The notes below the pieces were generated by a model. It saw only the letters and a list, made by a program, of their open reading frames with translations. It ran no database searches and had not been told where the DNA came from. 24,221 bases of DNA from a virus, in the IMG/VR virus record IMGVR_UViG_3300021185_000846, positions 1 through 24,221 of that record; one strand, 5' to 3'. A program made the translations under genes and the position numbers. Of this stretch, positions 10,053-24,221 are shown one piece after another. Each line of letters starts with the position of its first letter. Positions within the stretch are counted from its first letter, which is position 1.

Positions 10053-10565
10053 CTAAAACGGAATGTCGTCGTCGAGGTTGTCTTTCGTCTGCGCTGTAGC
10101 AGAAGCTACTGATGCACCCATAGGGTCACGCATAGCTTGAAGATTAAAGTCTCCATCAACATCTTTTGCTGACTTGTACTTCTTAATCTTCATGCTTGTC
10201 TTGCCGTTGTACTCGGATGTACCGACGTACACACCAAAGACTAAGCCCTTCATCACAGACACATCGTCGTCGGGGAACGGGTTGTCTGGATTGTTGTGAC
10301 CACCGTGAATAAGCATTGCCTTTAGATTAGACAGACCAATCTCTGCGTTCTTCGGGTAGTTAGGATTGTGTACTACGATCCAGTCTTTGATAGTCTTCTT
10401 ACCATCAACAACCTCGCGCATAAGAACTTCGATCTGAACCGCACCAGTTGGTTTGGTTACAGACTTAGCTTCAGTTACTTCTACGATGTGGTTGCCTTCT
10501 GGCAGTATTGAGTTTTCTGATACCTCAACATTTTTGAGGTTCATGCTATTAAATGTGAAGCTCAT
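10053..10565 (-). CDS. DUF669-type phage single-stranded DNA-binding protein
   Basis: 170 aa. Fits the DUF669 family of phage ssDNA-binding proteins: an N-terminal beta-rich fold (LPEGNHIVEVTEAKS, then alternating strands to about 135) and a disordered acidic tail. The last six residues, DDDIPF, are the exact tip of bacterial SSB, which recruits partner replication and repair enzymes. Its start overlaps the Sak4-like stop by one base. SSB beside Sak4 is a known recombination pair. A hairpin follows the stop. Confidence 0.85.
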   Translation of the reverse strand: MSFTFNSMNLKNVEVSENSILPEGNHIVEVTEAKSVTKPTGAVQIEVLMREVVDGKKTIKDWIVVHNPNYPKNAEIGLSNLKAMLIHGGHNNPDNPFPDDDVSVMKGLVFGVYVGTSEYNGKTSMKIKKYKSAKDVDGDFNLQAMRDPMGASVASATAQTKDNLDDDIPF

Positions 10566-11368
10566 TATTCACTCCCTTTTGCTTTGTTAAATTCCTCGTC
10601 TTCCATATCCATCTTTTTGAATAGGGCAACGAGACTTCCTGTCTGTTCAACAGGTCTTAGACGGCGACGTTCATCACGAACCTTGCCCTTCCAACCCATG
10701 TACTCTTCAGTAACTACATACCTTATTACCTTGCCATCACCTGATTGGTTATTAGCGTCGGCGGTATGGCGTACACCACAGAATACATTGTCGAAAATTC
10801 CTGGTAGCTGTTGTTGAGACTGCTTACCAGATACCATAGGCCAATACTCAACATTGCCCTTATCGTCTTGCCCCTCTTTAGCGAGGGCGGTAACAAGAAA
10901 GTGGCACGGCATATCTCGCATAGCCTTACATGCACCTATAAGATTTTTTGCATGGTCAGAGAATATCTGAAAACCGTTCACCGCTTTGCCAGCCTTCTTA
11001 GCTTCCGCATCTGCTTTCTCTCCGCAGTGCTTCATGCTCATGTCGCTGAGTTCGGTGAGGCTATCTACTCCAATCCATTTGTAACCTTTAGATTTGAAGT
11101 CATCAGTCATCATCCACTTGAAGATATCAACAAAGCTGTAGCTACCTTCTTCTGGATTGGATGAGTTGCTCCATGAGGTAAAAGGTAAGTAGTCAATACC
11201 AGCGTCGCGGATAGAACTTAACCCACTCTCGCCAGATAAGATGAACCCTTTGCCAAAATGTTTTTGGTAGTGGGTAAACTGAGTAGTCTTACCCCATCCG
11301 TGATGCCCATATAGAAGTGTTTTCCTATAGGCTGTTGTGTGATCCGAAGTATTCATTGGTTCAAACAT
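10565..11368 (-). CDS. Sak4-like RecA-fold ATPase (single-strand annealing/recombination)
   Basis: 267 aa. Walker A is GHHGWGKT (21-28); a Walker B-like strand KWIGVDSLTEL follows in the middle. The single compact P-loop domain with phage SSB as neighbour fits Sak4-type (AAA_24) recombinases, which pair or anneal single strands with help from SSB. The ATG abuts the TAA of the upstream gene, with GGA close by; M5 (11356) is the only near alternative but lacks a better site. The call rests on motif, length and context. Confidence 0.8.
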   Translation of the reverse strand: MFEPMNTSDHTTAYRKTLLYGHHGWGKTTQFTHYQKHFGKGFILSGESGLSSIRDAGIDYLPFTSWSNSSNPEEGSYSFVDIFKWMMTDDFKSKGYKWIGVDSLTELSDMSMKHCGEKADAEAKKAGKAVNGFQIFSDHAKNLIGACKAMRDMPCHFLVTALAKEGQDDKGNVEYWPMVSGKQSQQQLPGIFDNVFCGVRHTADANNQSGDGKVIRYVVTEEYMGWKGKVRDERRRLRPVEQTGSLVALFKKMDMEDEEFNKAKGSE

Positions 11369-17692: not shown

Positions 17693-18172
17693 TTATGAAA
17701 TGGCATCGTACCAGAATGGTACTGGTTGTCCTTTAACCCACTTAGCGAAGTGGGATTTTTCTTTACAGTAATACATTCGATAAGAAGCAACGTGGCTCTT
17801 CGACTTGTATTGGTCAGGCATACAGAGAGGTGGGATAGTGAAACCCCCCTCTCTAATATTGGGTGGTGGCTCAGTTAGATGACACATACGATACATAGTC
17901 TTGTGCGTAGTGTTATATCTCAACCAGTGTTGGCTCATTAACTCACACATGTGTGCATAAGCCCAACGATAATTACCTGATGTCAGACCACACCACTTAG
18001 TCATAGGGTGGTGGGGGTGAGCAATCTTATAAAGCCCATCGTGGTTTTCGCCGTGTTGTCGATGGACGGTTGATAACATTTGTCCAGTTTCAAGAAACAT
18101 TTTACTAACGTGCTTATCGCACAGATAGCTTGCCGACTTTCTTGGACACATGCTCAGGTGAAATATATTCAT
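17693..18172 (-). CDS. Conserved phage protein of the MNIF...CDKHVxKM type
   Basis: 159 aa from ATG 18172, with GGAG about 11 bases upstream; the longer frame starting 18205 lacks a site. The N-terminus MNIFHLSMCPRKSASYLCDK, then HVSKMFLETGQMLSTVHR, and the end KSHFAKWVKGQPVPFW are typical of a widespread uncharacterised phage protein family that I recognise by sequence but not by function. Rich in His, Cys and Trp, suggesting a metal site. Overlaps the HTH gene before it by 59 bases. Confidence 0.75.
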   Translation of the reverse strand: MNIFHLSMCPRKSASYLCDKHVSKMFLETGQMLSTVHRQHGENHDGLYKIAHPHHPMTKWCGLTSGNYRWAYAHMCELMSQHWLRYNTTHKTMYRMCHLTEPPPNIREGGFTIPPLCMPDQYKSKSHVASYRMYYCKEKSHFAKWVKGQPVPFWYDAIS

Positions 18173-18410
18173 GGTGTTTAATCTCCAACGAGTAACCCAT
18201 GACATTCAGTACAGCTTCGACACTATCAAGTCGTGCGCCATTCTGTTTCATCCATCTACTCATGGTTCGATACCCCAGACCAGCGGCGAGTTCAATGTCA
18301 GTTACATTAAACCCACCACTATCAATCAGTCCAAAGGTCTCCTTGAGTAAAGGATTTATGCGTAGGGTTGAGGGGTCAGGCCGAGGCCTTCCCCTTTTAT
18401 TATTTGTCAT
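18114..18410 (-). CDS. XRE/C1-like HTH regulator
   Basis: 98 aa. A basic N-terminus (NNKRGRPRPD) is followed by a helix-turn-helix at about residues 34-56 (NVTDIELAAGLGYRTMSRWM) and the ending DSVEAVLNVMGYSLEI, common in small XRE-type regulators that bind as dimers. The start overlaps the end of the upstream HTH gene by 11 bases, so the two are co-transcribed. Probably part of the lysogeny switch near the integrase. Confidence 0.75.
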   Translation of the reverse strand: MTNNKRGRPRPDPSTLRINPLLKETFGLIDSGGFNVTDIELAAGLGYRTMSRWMKQNGARLDSVEAVLNVMGYSLEIKHHEYISPEHVSKKVGKLSVR

Positions 18411-18825
18411 GCAGAGTTACCGCCTTTAATTTTTTACAAGCCTTAACCATCTCATCCAGAATTTGAGCATGAGATTTCTTGAAGACTAACGCGCAAGCAT
18501 GAATGTATTCAGATGCCTCGAAGGATATACCCTTCATAGGTTGGTATCGAACCGCAGTGTTGTCGATCTGCTTCCGCAGTGTTGCCGATTTGCGTTGGCC
18601 TTTGTGTCGAAATTTATTTTTAGATTGAGTTCTAATACGAAATAAATCGTCACGATATTCTTTGCGCTTCGGATCAAAGTTTCTGACGGTAGTCGGATCA
18701 CATTTAAGTAACTTAGCGACGGCATGATAACTCATACCCTCGTTTAATTTCTCTTGAAGAAGTATCAGTGCTTCACCATCCAAGAAGTTGTGCTTCTTGT
18801 GGGCCTTATGTTGTGTCGCTGACAT
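18400..18825 (-). CDS. Homeodomain-like HTH regulator
   Basis: 141 aa. Residues 18-50 read as a helix-turn-helix (LILLQEKLNEGMSYHAVAKL, then LKCDPTTVRNF), the recognition helix starting near DPTTVRN. The middle (55-85) is very basic, and the C-terminus is helical. GAAAGG lies about eight bases before the ATG. A promoter can be drawn upstream (TTTATA 18899-18894, TATATA 18876-18871, spacer 17). Its leader contains an 18-base sequence exactly complementary to the candidate small RNA at 20773-20866. Confidence 0.7.
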   Translation of the reverse strand: MSATQHKAHKKHNFLDGEALILLQEKLNEGMSYHAVAKLLKCDPTTVRNFDPKRKEYRDDLFRIRTQSKNKFRHKGQRKSATLRKQIDNTAVRYQPMKGISFEASEYIHACALVFKKSHAQILDEMVKACKKLKAVTLHDK

Positions 18826-18850: not shown

Positions 18851-18868
18851 TGGTTTGGTGTGTAGTTG
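18851..18868. repeat. Copy 1 of exact 18-bp repeat
   Basis: TGGTTTGGTGTGTAGTTG, identical to 20816-20833 and in the same orientation, 1,965 bp away. It lies in the 5' leader of the minus-strand HTH gene, 26 bases before its start codon, so in that mRNA it appears as the complement. Confidence 0.85.
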
Positions 18869-18922: not shown

Positions 18923-18951
18923 GTGTGACAATTATGTGTCAGAGATGTCAA
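18923..18951. repeat. Copy 1 of 29-bp imperfect direct repeat near integrase
   Basis: Matches 19109-19137 at 26 of 29 positions, same orientation. It contains TGACA-ATTATG-TGTCA, an inverted repeat. The two copies bracket the candidate attP core, as integrase arm-type sites do. Confidence 0.75.
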
Positions 18952-19029
18952 GTAGGGACACAACGACGTGTCTAACAGACCATTGATTTTACTAGGTTTT
19001 ATTTTCGGAAGACGTGTGAAGACGTGCTT

Positions 19030-19061
19030 TGGCTCCCCGGGACGGACACGGTAAATGTCCG
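19030..19061. other. Candidate attP core
   Basis: Within the 308-base gene-free stretch 18826-19133 beside the integrase, TGGCTCCCCGGGA (19030-19042) is a GC-rich island. Read on the minus strand, TCCCGGGGAGCCA has the form of a tRNA 3' end (T-stem end, 7-base acceptor strand, A73). It is followed by the inverted repeat CGGACA-7-TGTCCG (19043-19061), which could be the core site for the integrase. The two 29-bp repeats lie on either side. The placement is inferred; no attB can be seen here. Confidence 0.4.
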
Positions 19062-19108: not shown

Positions 19109-19137
19109 GTGTGTCAATTATGTGTCAGATATATCAA
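19109..19137. repeat. Copy 2 of 29-bp imperfect direct repeat near integrase
   Basis: 26 of 29 positions match copy 1 (18923-18951); it overlaps the last four bases of the integrase gene. TGTGTCA occurs twice within about 14 bases here. Likely integrase or excisionase arm-binding site. Confidence 0.75.
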
Positions 19138-20135
19138 AGAGGTGTCCGACTACTAACCACTACAGACCTTGCTCTGCTTTGGATAAAGCCTCTGTACCTC
19201 ATTGTCATGGATATGTCAGCGTGTCCTAAAAGATACTGCAAGTCACCCAAGTCAGCACCATTTTTTGCGGCGAGATATGCAAACGTGTGGCGCAAATCAT
19301 GTATCCTAATCGGTGGAATATTGAGGTGCATACATGCTCTCTTGACTGCCTTGTTCAAGGTAGCCGAAGCACTCTTGCTATCGTTCCATCTATTCAATCC
19401 ACGTTTAGGCCAAGCATGTTCGACTAGCTTAGTCACGTCGGGTGTCATGGGAATATCACGAGTGATAGTCTTCTGCTTGTTAGACGTGGTTCGACGTATC
19501 TTCACTACCTCTGCACGGAACGACGTTGGTTCGAGGCGAAGCATCTCACTAAGCCTTGCACCAGTATCAACCAACAGTAAAATCTGTGGGTAATAGTTTG
19601 GTTCTTTACGTAGGAAGTACATCAGTACGTCGTTCACCTGGTCAGCATCGAGATGAACATCTCTCGCGTCGTCAACGTAGGGCATCATAAACTTAGGACA
19701 CTTCCAACCATAAAGTTCTGACGCATAGTTCAGTATGGCACGTAGTTGGTTGAGGTATCTTCGGATGCTGTTTGGTTTCAGATGACCCATCGTGTTCACA
19801 ACATAAGTCTGAACCGACTGAGTTGTTACGTCGTCGAGCCTCGTGCCTTTCCAGTAGTCGCTGATGATATCTATCTTTCTATCCATGTCAGGGGATAGTC
19901 GGCCTTCCATCTTCTTGAAGCCGCGATAGTCTTCGATAGCGTTGTCGATAGTCTTGTTGGTCGGGCCATTAAAGTTACGTGTGAGTATCTGTTGCTCACG
20001 TTCGATACGTTTTTGCTCCGCCAGTTTCTTTCCGTCGGGATGTGCCACTGGTATGCGAGTGGTTTCTCTCACTCGCTTGCCAGCAAAGGTTCCGACTATG
20101 TGATATACGTCACGACGTTTCTCCAATTTTAACAT
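19134..20135 (-). CDS. int: Tyrosine-type site-specific integrase
   Basis: 333 aa, full length for a phage integrase. An N-terminal arm-binding region (1-60) is followed by a core-binding SAM-like domain (about 62-150) and the catalytic domain with R194 (TGARLSEML), a Lys near 220, H279-x2-R282 (IHDLRHTFA), H305 (LLGHADI) and the nucleophile Y314 (MTMRYRG). All catalytic residues are present, so it should be active and the phage temperate. It overlaps the LuxR-type gene by 26 bases and ends in a direct repeat beside the candidate attP. Confidence 0.93.
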   Translation of the reverse strand: MLKLEKRRDVYHIVGTFAGKRVRETTRIPVAHPDGKKLAEQKRIEREQQILTRNFNGPTNKTIDNAIEDYRGFKKMEGRLSPDMDRKIDIISDYWKGTRLDDVTTQSVQTYVVNTMGHLKPNSIRRYLNQLRAILNYASELYGWKCPKFMMPYVDDARDVHLDADQVNDVLMYFLRKEPNYYPQILLLVDTGARLSEMLRLEPTSFRAEVVKIRRTTSNKQKTITRDIPMTPDVTKLVEHAWPKRGLNRWNDSKSASATLNKAVKRACMHLNIPPIRIHDLRHTFAYLAAKNGADLGDLQYLLGHADISMTMRYRGFIQSRARSVVVSSRTPL

Positions 20136-20622
20136 GATTACTTTCCTTCAGTTTGTTGGTGGTAGTTGTGTATTGCTCAGGATGTATAGCCCAATCTTTA
20201 GGTAGCCCAGCATAGGTTTCGTACTCTTCTGCCGTGCAATGTTGTAGTGTGGTTCTGTAGTGGGCTACAATCTCACGTCGTTCAGACGTGTTGGTCTTTT
20301 TCATTATGCTTCTAACATGTACCTTGGCGGTGCTTTCTTGCACACCAAGTAACCTTGCGATCTCTCTGTTCGTTTTGCCTAGCGATAGTAACTGCATAGT
20401 TGCATGTTGTTTCTCTGTAAAACGTATAAGAAAATCCGCATTGCATGTATTCTTCGGGATAGTATCCCTCTCTTCGTGTGGTCTTTCCGATAACCCCACG
20501 ATTGAGGCACTCATTAACTCGAACGAGCTTTGTAGTAGTCTTATAGTGTCTTCTAAATGAGTTAATCTATTTTCTAATTCATAAATTGTGGTTGCCTTTT
20601 TTGTTGTTGTTTTTGTATTCAT
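20110..20622 (-). CDS. LuxR/GerE-type HTH regulator without sensor domain
   Basis: 170 aa from ATG 20622, with GGAG eight bases upstream; the longer start (20634) would overlap that site. Residues 13-46 form a short coiled coil, probably for dimerisation; residues 68-121 are a GerE-type HTH (FTEKQHATMQLLSLGKTNRE, then IARLLGVQESTAKVHVRSIM). There is no autoinducer or receiver domain. It lies directly upstream of and overlaps the integrase, so it is likely to be made together with it and may activate or repress integration or the lytic promoters. Phage LuxR-fold proteins of this size are uncommon. Confidence 0.85.
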   Translation of the reverse strand: MNTKTTTKKATTIYELENRLTHLEDTIRLLQSSFELMSASIVGLSERPHEERDTIPKNTCNADFLIRFTEKQHATMQLLSLGKTNREIARLLGVQESTAKVHVRSIMKKTNTSERREIVAHYRTTLQHCTAEEYETYAGLPKDWAIHPEQYTTTTNKLKESNHVKIGETS

Positions 20623-20634
20623 TATAGTCTCCAT

Positions 20635-20770
20635 TTAAGTTTGCCTCCTGAAAACGGTAAGAGGTCTTGACGAACATTCTCCTAATCGCTCGCCGTTCTT
20701 TCGTTGTTACATTGTGTTACATTATTAAGACACGTTATCTCACGTCGATAGACGTTTGTCTAGCTATATT
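20635..20770 (-). promoter_or_regulatory. Control region of the LuxR-integrase operon
   Basis: On the minus strand, TCGACG (20748-20743) and AATAAT (20726-20721) with a 16-base spacer make a plausible promoter, starting near 20714 and leaving a leader of about 90 bases. Two tandem TGTTACATT copies (20705-20713, 20715-20723) spaced exactly 10 bp, one helical turn, cover the -10 and start, as an operator would. TTAAGACA (20725-20732) and ATAGACGT (20748-20755) repeat motifs of the 11863-11900 region. Confidence 0.5.
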
Positions 20771-20772
20771 GT

Positions 20773-20866
20773 GGTTCAGCAAAACAAAGTGTATAGATGT
20801 AGTGCTGAACCTTCTTGGTTTGGTGTGTAGTTGTGGGGCAGATGGTGGTTCGTCTGCCCCATTTTT
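20773..20866 (+). ncRNA. Candidate small RNA with antisense linker
   Basis: Plus-strand structure in an otherwise minus-strand region: a 9-bp perfect stem GGTTCAGCA/TGCTGAACC (20773-20781 with 20803-20811, 21-base loop), a 23-base unpaired linker, then a terminator hairpin GGGGCAGA/TCTGCCCC (20835-20842 with 20853-20860) followed by ATTTTTAT. The T tract is only on the plus strand, and no plus-strand gene precedes it. The linker holds the 18-base repeat complementary to the leader of the HTH gene at 18825. A TATATT at 20765-20770 is close by, but I cannot assign a convincing promoter. Confidence 0.5.
20816..20833. repeat. Copy 2 of exact 18-bp repeat
   Basis: TGGTTTGGTGTGTAGTTG, identical to 18851-18868. 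Here it lies between the two hairpins of the candidate small RNA, on the RNA-sense strand. Confidence 0.85.
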
Positions 20867-21098
20867 ATATGATCGTCTTTTTACCACGAACATATTCATG
20901 CAACGGTAGCACAAACTCATCTGTTTCTTCGTCTGGTGTTATACCGCTTTCAATTTGATTACGTCGCAAGTCTGCAAAGGTCTCGTCGATCTCTGCTTGC
21001 GCTTCTGCTTCGGTGTTATAGATTTCTAGCAAGCCACTCTCTTGCCCCCATGCTTGATGTCCATTGCACAAGGTATCAATTACAATTACGTAAGCCAT
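20865..21098 (-). CDS. Small conserved phage protein MAYVIVIDT type, unknown
   Basis: 77 aa from ATG 21098, placed seven bases after GAGGAG; the upstream ATG at 21104 is too close to that site. Begins with a hydrophobic strand (MAYVIVIDTLC) then NGHQAWGQESG and an acidic helix (TEAEAQAEIDETFADLRR). I recall similar short proteins in marine phages but no function. Overlaps the gene before it by 23 bases. Confidence 0.65.
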   Translation of the reverse strand: MAYVIVIDTLCNGHQAWGQESGLLEIYNTEAEAQAEIDETFADLRRNQIESGITPDEETDEFVLPLHEYVRGKKTII

Positions 21099-21237
21099 CT
21101 CCATACTCCTCTTCCGTTTCAAAGTTTATCAGTTCAACTTTCATGCGATCATTTTTGTTTCTTTCGGGCATACCAAAATGCTCCCACAGATCGTCACATT
21201 CATCTCCATAAATGTAACCCCAAGTATTTTTACTCAT
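21076..21237 (-). CDS. Tiny acidic protein, 53 aa
   Basis: ATG at 21237, preceded by GGGAGAATGAAG and overlapping the previous gene's stop by eight bases; its end overlaps the next gene by 23 bases. The product begins MSKNTWGYIYGDECDDLWEH and is acidic throughout. No family recognised. The gap between its neighbours would otherwise be an unusually empty 130 bases in a packed block, which supports it. Confidence 0.5.
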   Translation of the reverse strand: MSKNTWGYIYGDECDDLWEHFGMPERNKNDRMKVELINFETEEEYGDGLRNCN

Positions 21238-21442
21238 CTTCATTCTCCCATTTTTCTATTTGATTGAGTAAACCCTCAGCACATTCGTGTCTGCCCTCAC
21301 AGATATCATCAGCTCCATCACATTGCGGATGATTAACCTCATCTATCAACCATGATTTAATCTTGTTAATGAAGGCATCTTTCTGATCTATTGCAGACAT
21401 GAGATTGTCTCTCTCTTTATGTAGTGCTTTTATATTATCCAT
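21230..21442 (-). CDS. Small coiled-coil protein
   Basis: 70 aa from ATG 21442 with AAGGGA upstream; the 87-aa version would overlap the previous gene and has no site. Residues 3-35 are a charged helix; the C-terminus holds three Cys (C41, C48, C54 region, CDGADDICEGRHEC), possibly a metal site. Unknown function. Confidence 0.6.
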   Translation of the reverse strand: MDNIKALHKERDNLMSAIDQKDAFINKIKSWLIDEVNHPQCDGADDICEGRHECAEGLLNQIEKWENEDE

Positions 21443-21455
21443 TTCATTTTCCCTT

Positions 21456-21896
21456 CTATATCTTTGGACTGAATGTGTCGTTGATTGCATCATAAACTGT
21501 TTGACCCCAGCTTAGTTGTTCAGCATCCGCAATGCTGACAGTACCAATCATAAGGTTGGCACCCTTCTTGTACTGGATAACGTGGTATGGTTGACCACGA
21601 ACGGCACACAATACAGGCTTACCGTAGGCCTGTAAGTCGTTGACCCAATCAGTATCCAAATCCTTGAACGTCTTGAGGCCCGAACGATTAGTGTCGGGCA
21701 TCTCCTTCAGGTGATAAGGCCGACGACGAAAGCCTCCCCTATTCTTGGTCGTATGAGATGGGGTCGGGGCAGGAACCCCGACGTGTATAGGCTCTCCAAG
21801 CGCGGCGAGCCTATCGTTGCACAACATGATGAGTGTGCGTGTCTCCTTGGCATCCATAGTTGCCATTACTTTTTCAATCATGGTTAGCTTATCCAT
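21456..21896 (-). CDS. Conserved hypothetical protein, 146 aa
   Basis: AGGAG lies nine bases before the ATG. The N-terminal 33 residues form a helical segment (MDKLTMIEKVMATMDAKETR), followed by a Pro/Arg-rich linker (36-62) and a C-terminal domain with alternating strands (KPVLCAVRGQPYHVIQYKKG, then ANLMIGTVSIADA). No known motif. Overlaps the preceding gene by eight bases. Confidence 0.65.
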   Translation of the reverse strand: MDKLTMIEKVMATMDAKETRTLIMLCNDRLAALGEPIHVGVPAPTPSHTTKNRGGFRRRPYHLKEMPDTNRSGLKTFKDLDTDWVNDLQAYGKPVLCAVRGQPYHVIQYKKGANLMIGTVSIADAEQLSWGQTVYDAINDTFSPKI

Positions 21897-22050
21897 TGTC
21901 TTTATCTCCTTCTAGTGTGAAACCTACGAGCGCATTGTCTAAGCTACACAAGTAGGTCAACTCTTCTTCAGCTATATTTGATGCTTCGTCTTCGTTATCT
22001 GCACTGACGTAGACACAAACGACAACTTCTCTAAAATCAAAACTAGTCAT
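21889..22050 (-). CDS. Tiny acidic protein, 53 aa
   Basis: GGGAG is ten bases before the ATG at 22050. The product begins MTSFDFREVVVCVYVSADNE and continues with an acidic helix (DEDEASNIAEEELTYL-like). It overlaps both neighbours by eight bases, a spacing repeated along this block. Function unknown. Confidence 0.55.
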   Translation of the reverse strand: MTSFDFREVVVCVYVSADNEDEASNIAEEELTYLCSLDNALVGFTLEGDKDNG

Positions 22051-22210
22051 CGTCTTTAATCTCCCTTACAAATAATACTTGTGGTTCATAACCGCCAACG
22101 AGGTTGACGACTTCTTTCTTGGCTAACTCTTTAGCCGTGAACTCATAGTCGGCATCGGCAATTACCGAACGCCTAACTACAACCTCAACTTCAACTGCAA
22201 ACTTCTTCAT
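22043..22210 (-). CDS. Tiny protein, 55 aa
   Basis: GGGAG eight bases before the ATG at 22210. Starts with a long beta strand MKKFAVEVEVVVRRSVIADA, then a short helix and an acidic end (REIKDDD). It shares a strand-helix-strand pattern with the 53-aa protein that follows it, so the two may be related duplicates. No function known. Confidence 0.55.
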   Translation of the reverse strand: MKKFAVEVEVVVRRSVIADADYEFTAKELAKKEVVNLVGGYEPQVLFVREIKDDD

Positions 22211-22212
22211 AC

Positions 22213-22725
22213 CTACTCTCCCTTTACTTTGATTAAGTAGTTGCGACCACTCGCATCACGGAACACGGCATTGTCCTTCACGAACTTGTTGATATGCTCG
22301 ACCAATGCACCACGTTCCAGCGACCAGTCATGGCCCGACTTCCACTTGAGACCACGAGCATCCATCGCAACACCAATGTACTTGGCAATGGTAAGTGTGA
22401 AGTCTTCCCAATCATGCCGACCAATCTCTGCATCGGCTTGACCCTTTGCCATAGTCCAGTCGTCGGGCTTGTCAATCATACGCTCCAACTCACACTGTCT
22501 GACGTACAACTTCTGTTGCATGACTTCGAGTGCAGTCTCTTCTTGCAATGGCTTGACTACCTTGCGAGGTGAAGCCACGCGGAAGAGGTCAGGTGTGCTA
22601 TCAGACTGTCGCTTAGTAGTCACAGTCTTGAACACTGGGGTTGGCTTAGGTTTCTCAACGACACCGTACTCAGCAAGTGTGTTGTCAGTGATAGTCTTGG
22701 TAATGTTATCTAAAGATTTCGTCAT
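22213..22725 (-). CDS. Conserved hypothetical protein, 170 aa
   Basis: The N-terminal 65 residues are polar, Pro/Thr/Lys-rich and probably disordered; residues 65-170 look folded, with helical segments (ALEVMQQKLYVRQCELERMI, DFTLTIAKYIGVAMDARGLK) and an ending YLIKVKGE. No family recognised. Overlaps the upstream small basic gene by 20 bases and lies in the same operon as the CobT-like gene. Confidence 0.7.
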   Translation of the reverse strand: MTKSLDNITKTITDNTLAEYGVVEKPKPTPVFKTVTTKRQSDSTPDLFRVASPRKVVKPLQEETALEVMQQKLYVRQCELERMIDKPDDWTMAKGQADAEIGRHDWEDFTLTIAKYIGVAMDARGLKWKSGHDWSLERGALVEHINKFVKDNAVFRDASGRNYLIKVKGE

Positions 22726-22912
22726 GTGTTTGTTCCTTATTGATTGGATAGGGTTCAGCTAGAGCGATTGCCCTAACTTTGTTGTAGTCACGCAGTCGTA
22801 CATTCGCTTGCTTGACGCGACGACGAACACGCTTCCAGAAGCTAAGTGGTCTGCCTGGGATAAGACCGAACCACTCAGCGGGGATACGTAGGCCAGTGAT
22901 GTTACTTGACAT
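22706..22912 (-). CDS. Small basic protein, 68 aa
   Basis: Start at ATG 22912 with AAGGAG nine bases upstream; the 91-aa version would run far into the CobT-like gene. Contains IPAEWFGLIPGRPLSFWKRV followed by a very basic helix (RRRVKQANVRLRDYNKVR), suggesting nucleic-acid binding. Overlaps the CobT-like gene by 11 bases. Function unknown. Confidence 0.65.
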   Translation of the reverse strand: MSSNITGLRIPAEWFGLIPGRPLSFWKRVRRRVKQANVRLRDYNKVRAIALAEPYPINKEQTHDEIFR

Positions 22913-24221
22913 TGCGAGCAACTCCTTTGATGAGGTCACTGTTATCAACAGCGAACCGTTCACCAAGTAGTAGCTTGCCAAGCTGATCCATCACTTGTTT
23001 GGTTAGGTCGTCGAGGTTTTGCACCACGACGTAGCGAGGGAAGAACTGCCTCACACAGTCATCGAGGATACCAATACCGACAACATCAATTCCCATCTGC
23101 TGAATGAAAGCAACACAGTTTGATGTGTGTGAGTAGTGGGTCTTTGGTAGGTCACTTGAGTAGGCAGGCCTACCATCGGACATGGCAATGAAGATACGTC
23201 GCTTCTCAGGACGTTGTGCTAGTCGCTCCACTGCATACAACCAACTGTCACCATCAGCATTGGCACCACCAGTACAGTTAGGCATGTTACCAAGGGCGGT
23301 ACGAGATTGCTTCATCGTCTTTCCGAATGGCTTGAACATGAACATGCTGATACCATCAGTACGGTTGTACTTTACCCCACCTCGCTGACGATCACCGCTC
23401 ATCCTTACGGTGGTCTTGTGACCAGTAATCTCAAGCGATACGTTGGTGCCAGTCAATGCCTCGCCAATAGCAACGCAACAATCGGTAGCCAACTCAATCT
23501 CTTGACCGTTCATTGAACCCGACAAGTCAACGCAGATAGACACCGCAGTATCAATAGCATTGGTCTCTATCTTGCTACGGAATACATTGGGATCGAACTG
23601 CATGATGTTGACTAGCCGACGAGTATCCAACTTGCCAGTACGCTTACCACTCTCATGCTTGACACGAGCCGACGACATCAAGGCACGCTCCAACTTACGT
23701 CGCATTGTACCTAGCTTGTTGGACATGTTGGATAGACGATTACTGTAGTACCTATCGCCATGCTTATCATCCAAGATACGAGACACTTTGGTAATCAATG
23801 AAGTGCCAACCTTCACACCCTTCGGTACACGCCACATGTCTTGGTTTCTATTCAGTACACGATAGCCGTTTTTGGTTTTCTGATTTACCTGATTGACTAT
23901 GGCATCGAGTGCTTGACCCAACTCAGGGGATACTGGGTCGGGGGCATTGTTCTCAGTCCATACGTCGGCGTGGTTTGGGTCAGTCCCATCTATTTGTTTT
24001 GGCTTATCTCCGCTTTGAGTGTCTTTATCTGCTTGTCCTTTGTCATCAGCTTGAGAGCCATGTCCAGTAGAGCTTGTTGGATTTGGAACTGTAGGACTTC
24101 CATCATCTCCTTGATTTCCCGTTCCGTTAGTAGGGCCAGACTGCTCGCTATCTTCGGCGCGCCGTCCTCCTCCAGAAGTACGCTCATTATTTGGGGCAGT
24201 GCCATTGTCGCCATTGCCGTC
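22902..24221 (-). CDS. CobT-like VWA-domain protein, 5' end outside window
   Basis: Open on the minus strand from the window's right edge, giving at least 439 residues; the TTG at 23921 is internal. Residues 1-100 are acidic, Gly/Asp/Ser/Thr-rich low complexity, like the linker of CobT. The C-terminal half is a von Willebrand A domain with a full MIDAS: VDLSGSM (D232, S234, S236), a TGGANADG Thr, and AMSDGRP Asp. CobT works with a MoxR-type AAA+ ATPase (CobS) in metal chelation; phages often carry such pairs with unknown roles. CobS may lie upstream, off the window. A role in cobalamin synthesis is not implied. Confidence 0.85.
   Translation of the reverse strand, partial: DGNGDNGTAPNNERTSGGGRRAEDSEQSGPTNGTGNQGDDGSPTVPNPTSSTGHGSQADDKGQADKDTQSGDKPKQIDGTDPNHADVWTENNAPDPVSPELGQALDAIVNQVNQKTKNGYRVLNRNQDMWRVPKGVKVGTSLITKVSRILDDKHGDRYYSNRLSNMSNKLGTMRRKLERALMSSARVKHESGKRTGKLDTRRLVNIMQFDPNVFRSKIETNAIDTAVSICVDLSGSMNGQEIELATDCCVAIGEALTGTNVSLEITGHKTTVRMSGDRQRGGVKYNRTDGISMFMFKPFGKTMKQSRTALGNMPNCTGGANADGDSWLYAVERLAQRPEKRRIFIAMSDGRPAYSSDLPKTHYSHTSNCVAFIQQMGIDVVGIGILDDCVRQFFPRYVVVQNLDDLTKQVMDQLGKLLLGERFAVDNSDLIKGVARNVK

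Follow-up and report, generated by a model that had tools for sequence, protein, structure and literature searches.

What is a short plus strand element with the layout of a small RNA doing in a region where all genes of a phage run on the minus strand, and why does its unpaired segment match, in antisense, the leader of a gene some distance away? The question arises in a 24,221 nt stretch of viral DNA (IMG/VR record IMGVR_UViG_3300021185_000846, positions 1 to 24,221), here called the window. The window is a temperate marine phage of the CRP-810 type. Its integrase, LuxR-like regulator, CobT-like VWA protein and pyrimidine-dimer glycosylase are also found in Roseobacter phage CRP-810, the only annotated phage near it at the protein level; no related annotated phage was found at the DNA level. 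Contig L001 is 99.8% identical to the window and adds no information. The best explanation of the element, and one that we consider probable, is a phage-encoded, trans-acting, multi-target antisense sRNA, similar in kind to GcvB, that represses the phage's own early and lysogeny mRNAs. The basis for this is structure, complementarity, lineage-specific co-change and position.

The element is flanked by the luxR-like gene and the next minus strand gene and is directed away from luxR. Its parts, and the neighbouring gene, are as follows.

20765..20770, plus strand: possible -10 element TATATT (TATATTG also precedes both lineage A sRNAs, which is weak evidence)
20773..20866, plus strand: candidate sRNA gene, composed of a 5' hairpin, an unpaired linker and an intrinsic terminator with T5, recognized by its fold and by a layout that recurs in other lineages
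20773..20811, plus strand: 5' hairpin of 9 bp, arms GGUUCAGCA and UGCUGAACC (20773-20781 paired with 20803-20811)
20812..20832, plus strand: unpaired linker of 21 nt, the putative targeting segment, holding the 18-mer 20816-20833
20833..20866, plus strand: intrinsic terminator, a 13 bp stem and T5 (hairpin 20833-20862 running into T5)
20110..20634, minus strand: LuxR-like (GerE) regulator gene (PF00196, 1.6e-10), the divergently oriented neighbour and a conserved anchor for the sRNA

The first-pass annotation had described a plus strand hairpin, an unpaired linker and a GC hairpin with T5 among genes that are all on the minus strand. The genes at 17693-18825 and 19134-24221 are indeed all minus, and the predicted fold of the RNA (-38.6 kcal/mol; z = -5.71; equally stable shuffles 0/200) bears out this layout. 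Within it the 18-mer has a predicted mean unpaired probability of 0.92, and the hairpin and T-tract are the strongest terminator-like site of the region in a terminator scan. Both an intrinsic terminator and a stable fold, as would be expected of a discrete sRNA transcript, are present at 20773-20866. As that annotation had also found, there is no good promoter: the scan upstream of the RNA identified no σ70 promoter and no consensus -35. A bare TATATTG (20765-20771) is, however, at the identical position in the window phage and both lineage A phages, and may be the -10 of the sRNA promoter; its presence without a -35 suggests activator control. In the window, a palindrome in the 20735-20770 region (TAGACGTTTGTCTA; TTGAAGATGTCTTCAA in G001) stops 2 nt before TATATTG. 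A comparable palindrome precedes the lineage A sRNAs, and these palindromes are possible regulator sites for the promoter.

No tRNA or tmRNA was found, nor any convincing match among the Rfam families, a match to Virus_CITE_3 being rejected as chance. A degenerate linker plus GGGG pattern had 84 matches across viral contigs, 13 with a strong hairpin; these 13 look like the usual terminators at gene ends in other phages and were set aside. Contig L066 (at 2800) and 12 similar contigs have a conserved hairpin preceded by TTGGTGTGTTCCTTG and located after a gene end, seemingly an ordinary terminator belonging to unrelated phages.

Which mRNAs would such an RNA reach? The sites and genes on the window that bear on this are listed here.

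18400..18825, minus strand: target gene encoding a 141-aa protein of weak HTH similarity, adjoining the putative attP
18851..18868, minus strand: target site in the leader of this HTH gene, an 18-bp perfect complement of the linker at -43 to -26 from the start codon
19134..20135, minus strand: target gene encoding the tyrosine integrase (PF00589, 1e-20)
20156..20170, minus strand: target site in the integrase leader, CACAACTAC-CACCAA (9 bp, a 1-nt bulge and 6 bp)
22237..22246, minus strand: possible third target site, in the leader of a 55-aa gene (22043-22210, minus), a candidate known from the window alone
22902..24221, minus strand: CobT-like VWA gene, partial (PF11775, 6e-26)

The 18-mer TGGTTTGGTGTGTAGTTG is present twice on the plus strand, at 18851-18868 and 20816-20833. 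It is the sole exact 18-mer repeat in the window, which contains no further copy even when 3 mismatches are allowed. This recurrence, and the placement of the complement ending 26 bases 5' of the HTH start codon, had been reported by the first reading and are correct. The accompanying estimate that chance would produce such a repeat about once in 100 was too low, as 3/60 dinucleotide shuffles of the window contain some exact 18-mer repeat. Because of this the repeat taken alone is weak, only suggestive evidence and cannot carry the sRNA claim; its placement and, decisively, the related phages take it beyond chance. The description of the gene product as an HTH regulator holds in part: there is weak HTH similarity, all of it sub-threshold (best HTH_38, E = 0.002), which makes DNA binding likely rather than certain. 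Also too narrow was the proposal of the HTH leader as the single target, since each phage has several, including integrase and the CobS-like ATPase. In the window, the integrase site has a duplex energy of -26.3 kcal/mol, the best among 47 leaders (leader-shuffle p = 0.0035). It falls within the 3' end of the luxR-like ORF, hence is also luxR coding sequence, and it fails to discriminate the window linker from that of lineage A in the swap test described below. For the 22237-22246 site the duplex is -23.1 (shuffle p about 0.001). The CobS-like gene, the commonest target in relatives, is beyond the contig end in the window phage.

Near the HTH and integrase genes, two 34-nt direct repeats that are 85% alike (18923-18956 and 19109-19142) flank TGGCTCCCCGGGACGGACAC (19030-19049). 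Lineage A has this sequence too. It looks like a tRNA 3' end in reverse complement and, with the flanking repeats, is probably an attP core with integrase arm sites.

The element recurs in about six other lineages. The closest comparison is with lineage A, contigs 3300007640_000118 and 3300033183_000125, whose integrases are 67% identical to that of the window. Both contigs have, antisense and just upstream of luxR, a hairpin, the linker GTTGGTGTGTGTTG (in GCGTTGGTGTGTGTTG) and a terminator, GGGGTAGAGG-GTGGTT-CCTCTACCCC-TTTTT. The HTH leaders ACACACACCAAC and ACACACACCAAT complement the linker GTTGGTGTGTGT over 12 bp, the second via a G-U pair. Relative to the window (UUUGGUGUGUAG), three core positions are altered in both linker and HTH leader, a compensatory change. 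Had one copy been kept while the other drifted, the first-pass proposal of an sRNA pairing in trans with the 5' end of a regulator mRNA would have been in difficulty; the opposite was found, and the linker/leader co-change in relatives supports that proposal. Sites of the ACACACACCAA type are present in lineage A before the starts of luxR (noted for 3300007640_000118), HTH, cobS-like and 62-aa genes, all on the gene strand, and a variant, ACACACACCACC, precedes the integrase start.

Lineages A, B, C and G were found by position: in all four, the same sRNA layout immediately precedes a luxR-like gene, in antisense to it. An alignment search with LuxR yielded lineage B and one with the CobS-like protein added E and G. 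Lineage D came from an unbiased scan in which every intergenic window was compared with every leader, and E and F from a pairing search, hence these two are not independent tests. Gene starts were called by a simple script. In each lineage the linkers complement the leaders of the phage's own early genes, encoding the CobS-like AAA+ ATPase, integrase, HTH protein or a 170-aa protein, at sites that precede, cover or span the ribosome-binding site or start codon. Across lineages, the words of linker and leader shift together, being ACACACACCAAC in A, GAGCATCACCAAAG in D and CTACACACCAAACCA in the window.

The three lineage B contigs have a hairpin (ACTTAC-CTCG-GTAAGT), the linker TTTCGTGTGTGTGTGA and a terminator. 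The linker segment AGTTTCGTGTGTGTGT forms a 16-bp pairing across the integrase start GCACACACATGAAGCT, AUG included, and the linker also matches the CobS-like, 56-aa and 165-aa genes. Lineage C (G004) has a similar element. The linker of lineage D (G009), TTTTGGTGATGCTC, is quite different, and its match in the cobS leader is GAGCATCACCAAAG; the leaders of four genes, that of the CobS-like protein among them, carry GAGCATCAC(CAAAG). Lineage E (L194) has the linker CTATGGTGTGTGTCC, a strong terminator and a site over the start codon of cobS (GGACACACACCATG), with luxR about 0.3 kb from the element if the contig is circular. In lineage G (L202), GCACACACACATG (CATGTGTGTGTGT) lies over the cobS start codon. 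Lineage F (L192) is a borderline member on which no conclusion here depends. It has a possible sRNA (10300-10640, minus) with the linker CCATGGTTGTAGGTAG and a strong terminator, antisense upstream of integrase; no luxR was detected in this contig and the candidate linker pairs with the cobS leader over just 9 bp.

The elements are not uniform. Lineages C, D and G have terminators with a weak T-tract or none, and the MFE fold of the A, C and E RNAs places part of the linker in a duplex with the 5' part of the same molecule, a pairing that could be self-inhibition or the product of a wrongly placed start site. The self-paired 5' segment resembles a target site. No sRNA-like element was found in L186, G008 or most luxR/integrase loci of more distant members, and CRP-810 itself has none upstream of luxR. 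Four contigs (L204, L206, L207 and L222) have their own repeated leader words (e.g. CACACACATG, AACTATAACACTAAC) before several early genes, with no matching sRNA located on the stretch examined.

Does each linker pair with its own leaders better than chance would allow? Of the shuffled linkers, 0/200 equalled the best target of the window phage (HTH) or of any lineage B contig (integrase), and 2.5 to 3.5% did so for lineages A and C. In a swap test of 17 orthologous leaders from the window and lineages A, B, C and D, own-linker pairing ranks first of 120 assignments, although lineage D had been chosen by pairing. The single near-tie arises when the almost identical linkers of B and C are exchanged; because these are nearly alike the lineages are not fully independent. 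As D was picked by pairing, a position-only test is cleaner. Here the 450 nt antisense upstream of luxR were compared with the phage's own cobS leader in 14 phages, with no selection by pairing. Own pairs reached -21 kcal/mol or lower in 5/14 cases, versus 13/182 for swapped pairs (permutation p = 0.0004), and the sense-strand control gave 0/14. With 5/14 own pairs, the element is genuine in some members of the family but not in every one. For the CobS leaders of seven lineages the own sum was reached by 4/5040 permutations, a figure that is illustrative only given that E and F were selected by pairing. Duplex energies averaged over whole leaders fail to tell real leaders from shuffles, and the signal is confined to the extreme targets. 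There is an unpaired segment complementary to the 5' ends of mRNAs encoded elsewhere, and the predicted pairing is maintained through co-change in relatives.

How might such an RNA work? An RNA of about 90 nt would run divergently from the luxR-like gene to a terminator of its own. The linker, G/U-rich and single-stranded, would pair with C/A-rich sites at the 5' ends of phage early and lysogeny mRNAs. In the window phage these would be the HTH and integrase mRNAs, to which the relatives add those of the CobS-like AAA+ ATPase, the CobT-like protein, the 170-aa protein and luxR itself. Pairing would most likely lower translation by masking the Shine-Dalgarno (SD)/start region or an ACA-rich enhancer just upstream. 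Repression is predicted because the sites cover SD or start codons in several lineages; in the window and lineage A, those that lie at -20 to -43 would fit a blocked enhancer or standby site. In this way one RNA might hold down the integrase/regulator/CobS-CobT block during some phase of infection or lysogeny. Production of the RNA, its pairing in vivo and its repressive effect are inferences from these sequence features. More tentatively, and with rather less than an even chance in our estimation, each lineage may have its own linker word to which the leaders of the early operon, with integrase, regulators and the CobS/CobT-like ATPase, have been rewritten, one RNA setting the early/lysogeny programme and possibly being self-specific versus co-infecting relatives.

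Could the motif instead be a DNA operator, bound by the LuxR-like or HTH regulator at several promoters, with the hairpin an ordinary terminator? The motif does precede regulator and integrase genes, and there is a palindrome near the presumed sRNA promoter. However, it is invariably sense in the leaders and reversed in the sRNA, overlaps the SD and/or AUG in B, C, D, E and G, and tolerates G-U wobble (e.g. the G001 HTH leader and the B start codons), while a copy adjoins a GC hairpin in every lineage. Many sites are also inside operons, in gaps of 2-30 nt or within the upstream ORF, where an operator would be odd. We regard an operator as quite unlikely. It is very improbable that the C/A-rich leaders are ordinary translation enhancers, with a coincidental or compositional antisense match and plus strand hairpins that are mere terminators. 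ACA/CA-rich leaders boost translation in enteric bacteria (PMC3879156), mean pairing over whole leaders is not above shuffles, and exact 18-mers occur in 3/60 shuffles, yet the lineage D motif is not a CA repeat and is still matched by its own linker, the swap and position-only tests favour own pairing, and no shuffled linker of 200 equals the best target in the window or B.

The same sRNA and pairing might also serve activation or mRNA stabilization, by opening the ribosome site or protecting the 5' end, or the leaders might act as sponges. Several window and lineage A sites, 20-43 nt upstream of the start and outside the SD, would suit this, but those of B, C, D, E and G cover the SD or start codon, which predicts repression, and we consider such a role unlikely. 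On the preferred reading, one phage RNA appears to govern a small, putative regulon of the phage's own early genes, integrase included, in a widespread marine phage family where evolution supplies natural 'compensatory mutation experiments'. The lysis/lysogeny control of these hard-to-study marine phages becomes directly testable, and linker/leader co-change offers a purely computational route to phage sRNAs without RNA-seq.

GcvB has a G/U-rich single-stranded linker between stem-loops, and the candidate likewise has a G/U-rich linker that pairs with C/A-rich sites in several leaders. GcvB pairs just upstream of the SD, where ACA motifs are translation enhancers silenced by the pairing (PMC3879156); many targets, with predicted sites just upstream of the SD, are common to the two. 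The GcvB Rfam covariance model has no match at E up to 5 in the window or up to 0.5 in L048 and L166. The synteny of cobS/cobT, endonuclease V, LuxR, integrase and primase is common to these phages and the published CRP-810-type family (PMC11288001), and in the open-access literature neither that description nor a review of phage sRNAs (PMC12197685) mentions such an RNA. Like VpdS (VP882), PreS (lambda), 24B_1, Sar (P22) and OOP (lambda), the candidate would be a phage-encoded small RNA linked to lysis/lysogeny or replication (PMC12197685). OOP is cis-antisense to cII, whereas the HTH target here is about 2 kb away and the other sites are at other loci. Sar has one target, ant, PreS targets host dnaN, and the phage sRNAs reviewed have mostly host targets or one phage target; none is described as a co-evolving regulon of own early-operon leaders including integrase (PMC12197685). 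The nearest is VpdS, which targets host and phage mRNAs via Hfq (PMC12197685). Unlike GcvB, which is aimed at amino-acid transport, the candidate is phage-encoded, shorter and directed at phage early genes, with a linker sequence that varies between lineages.
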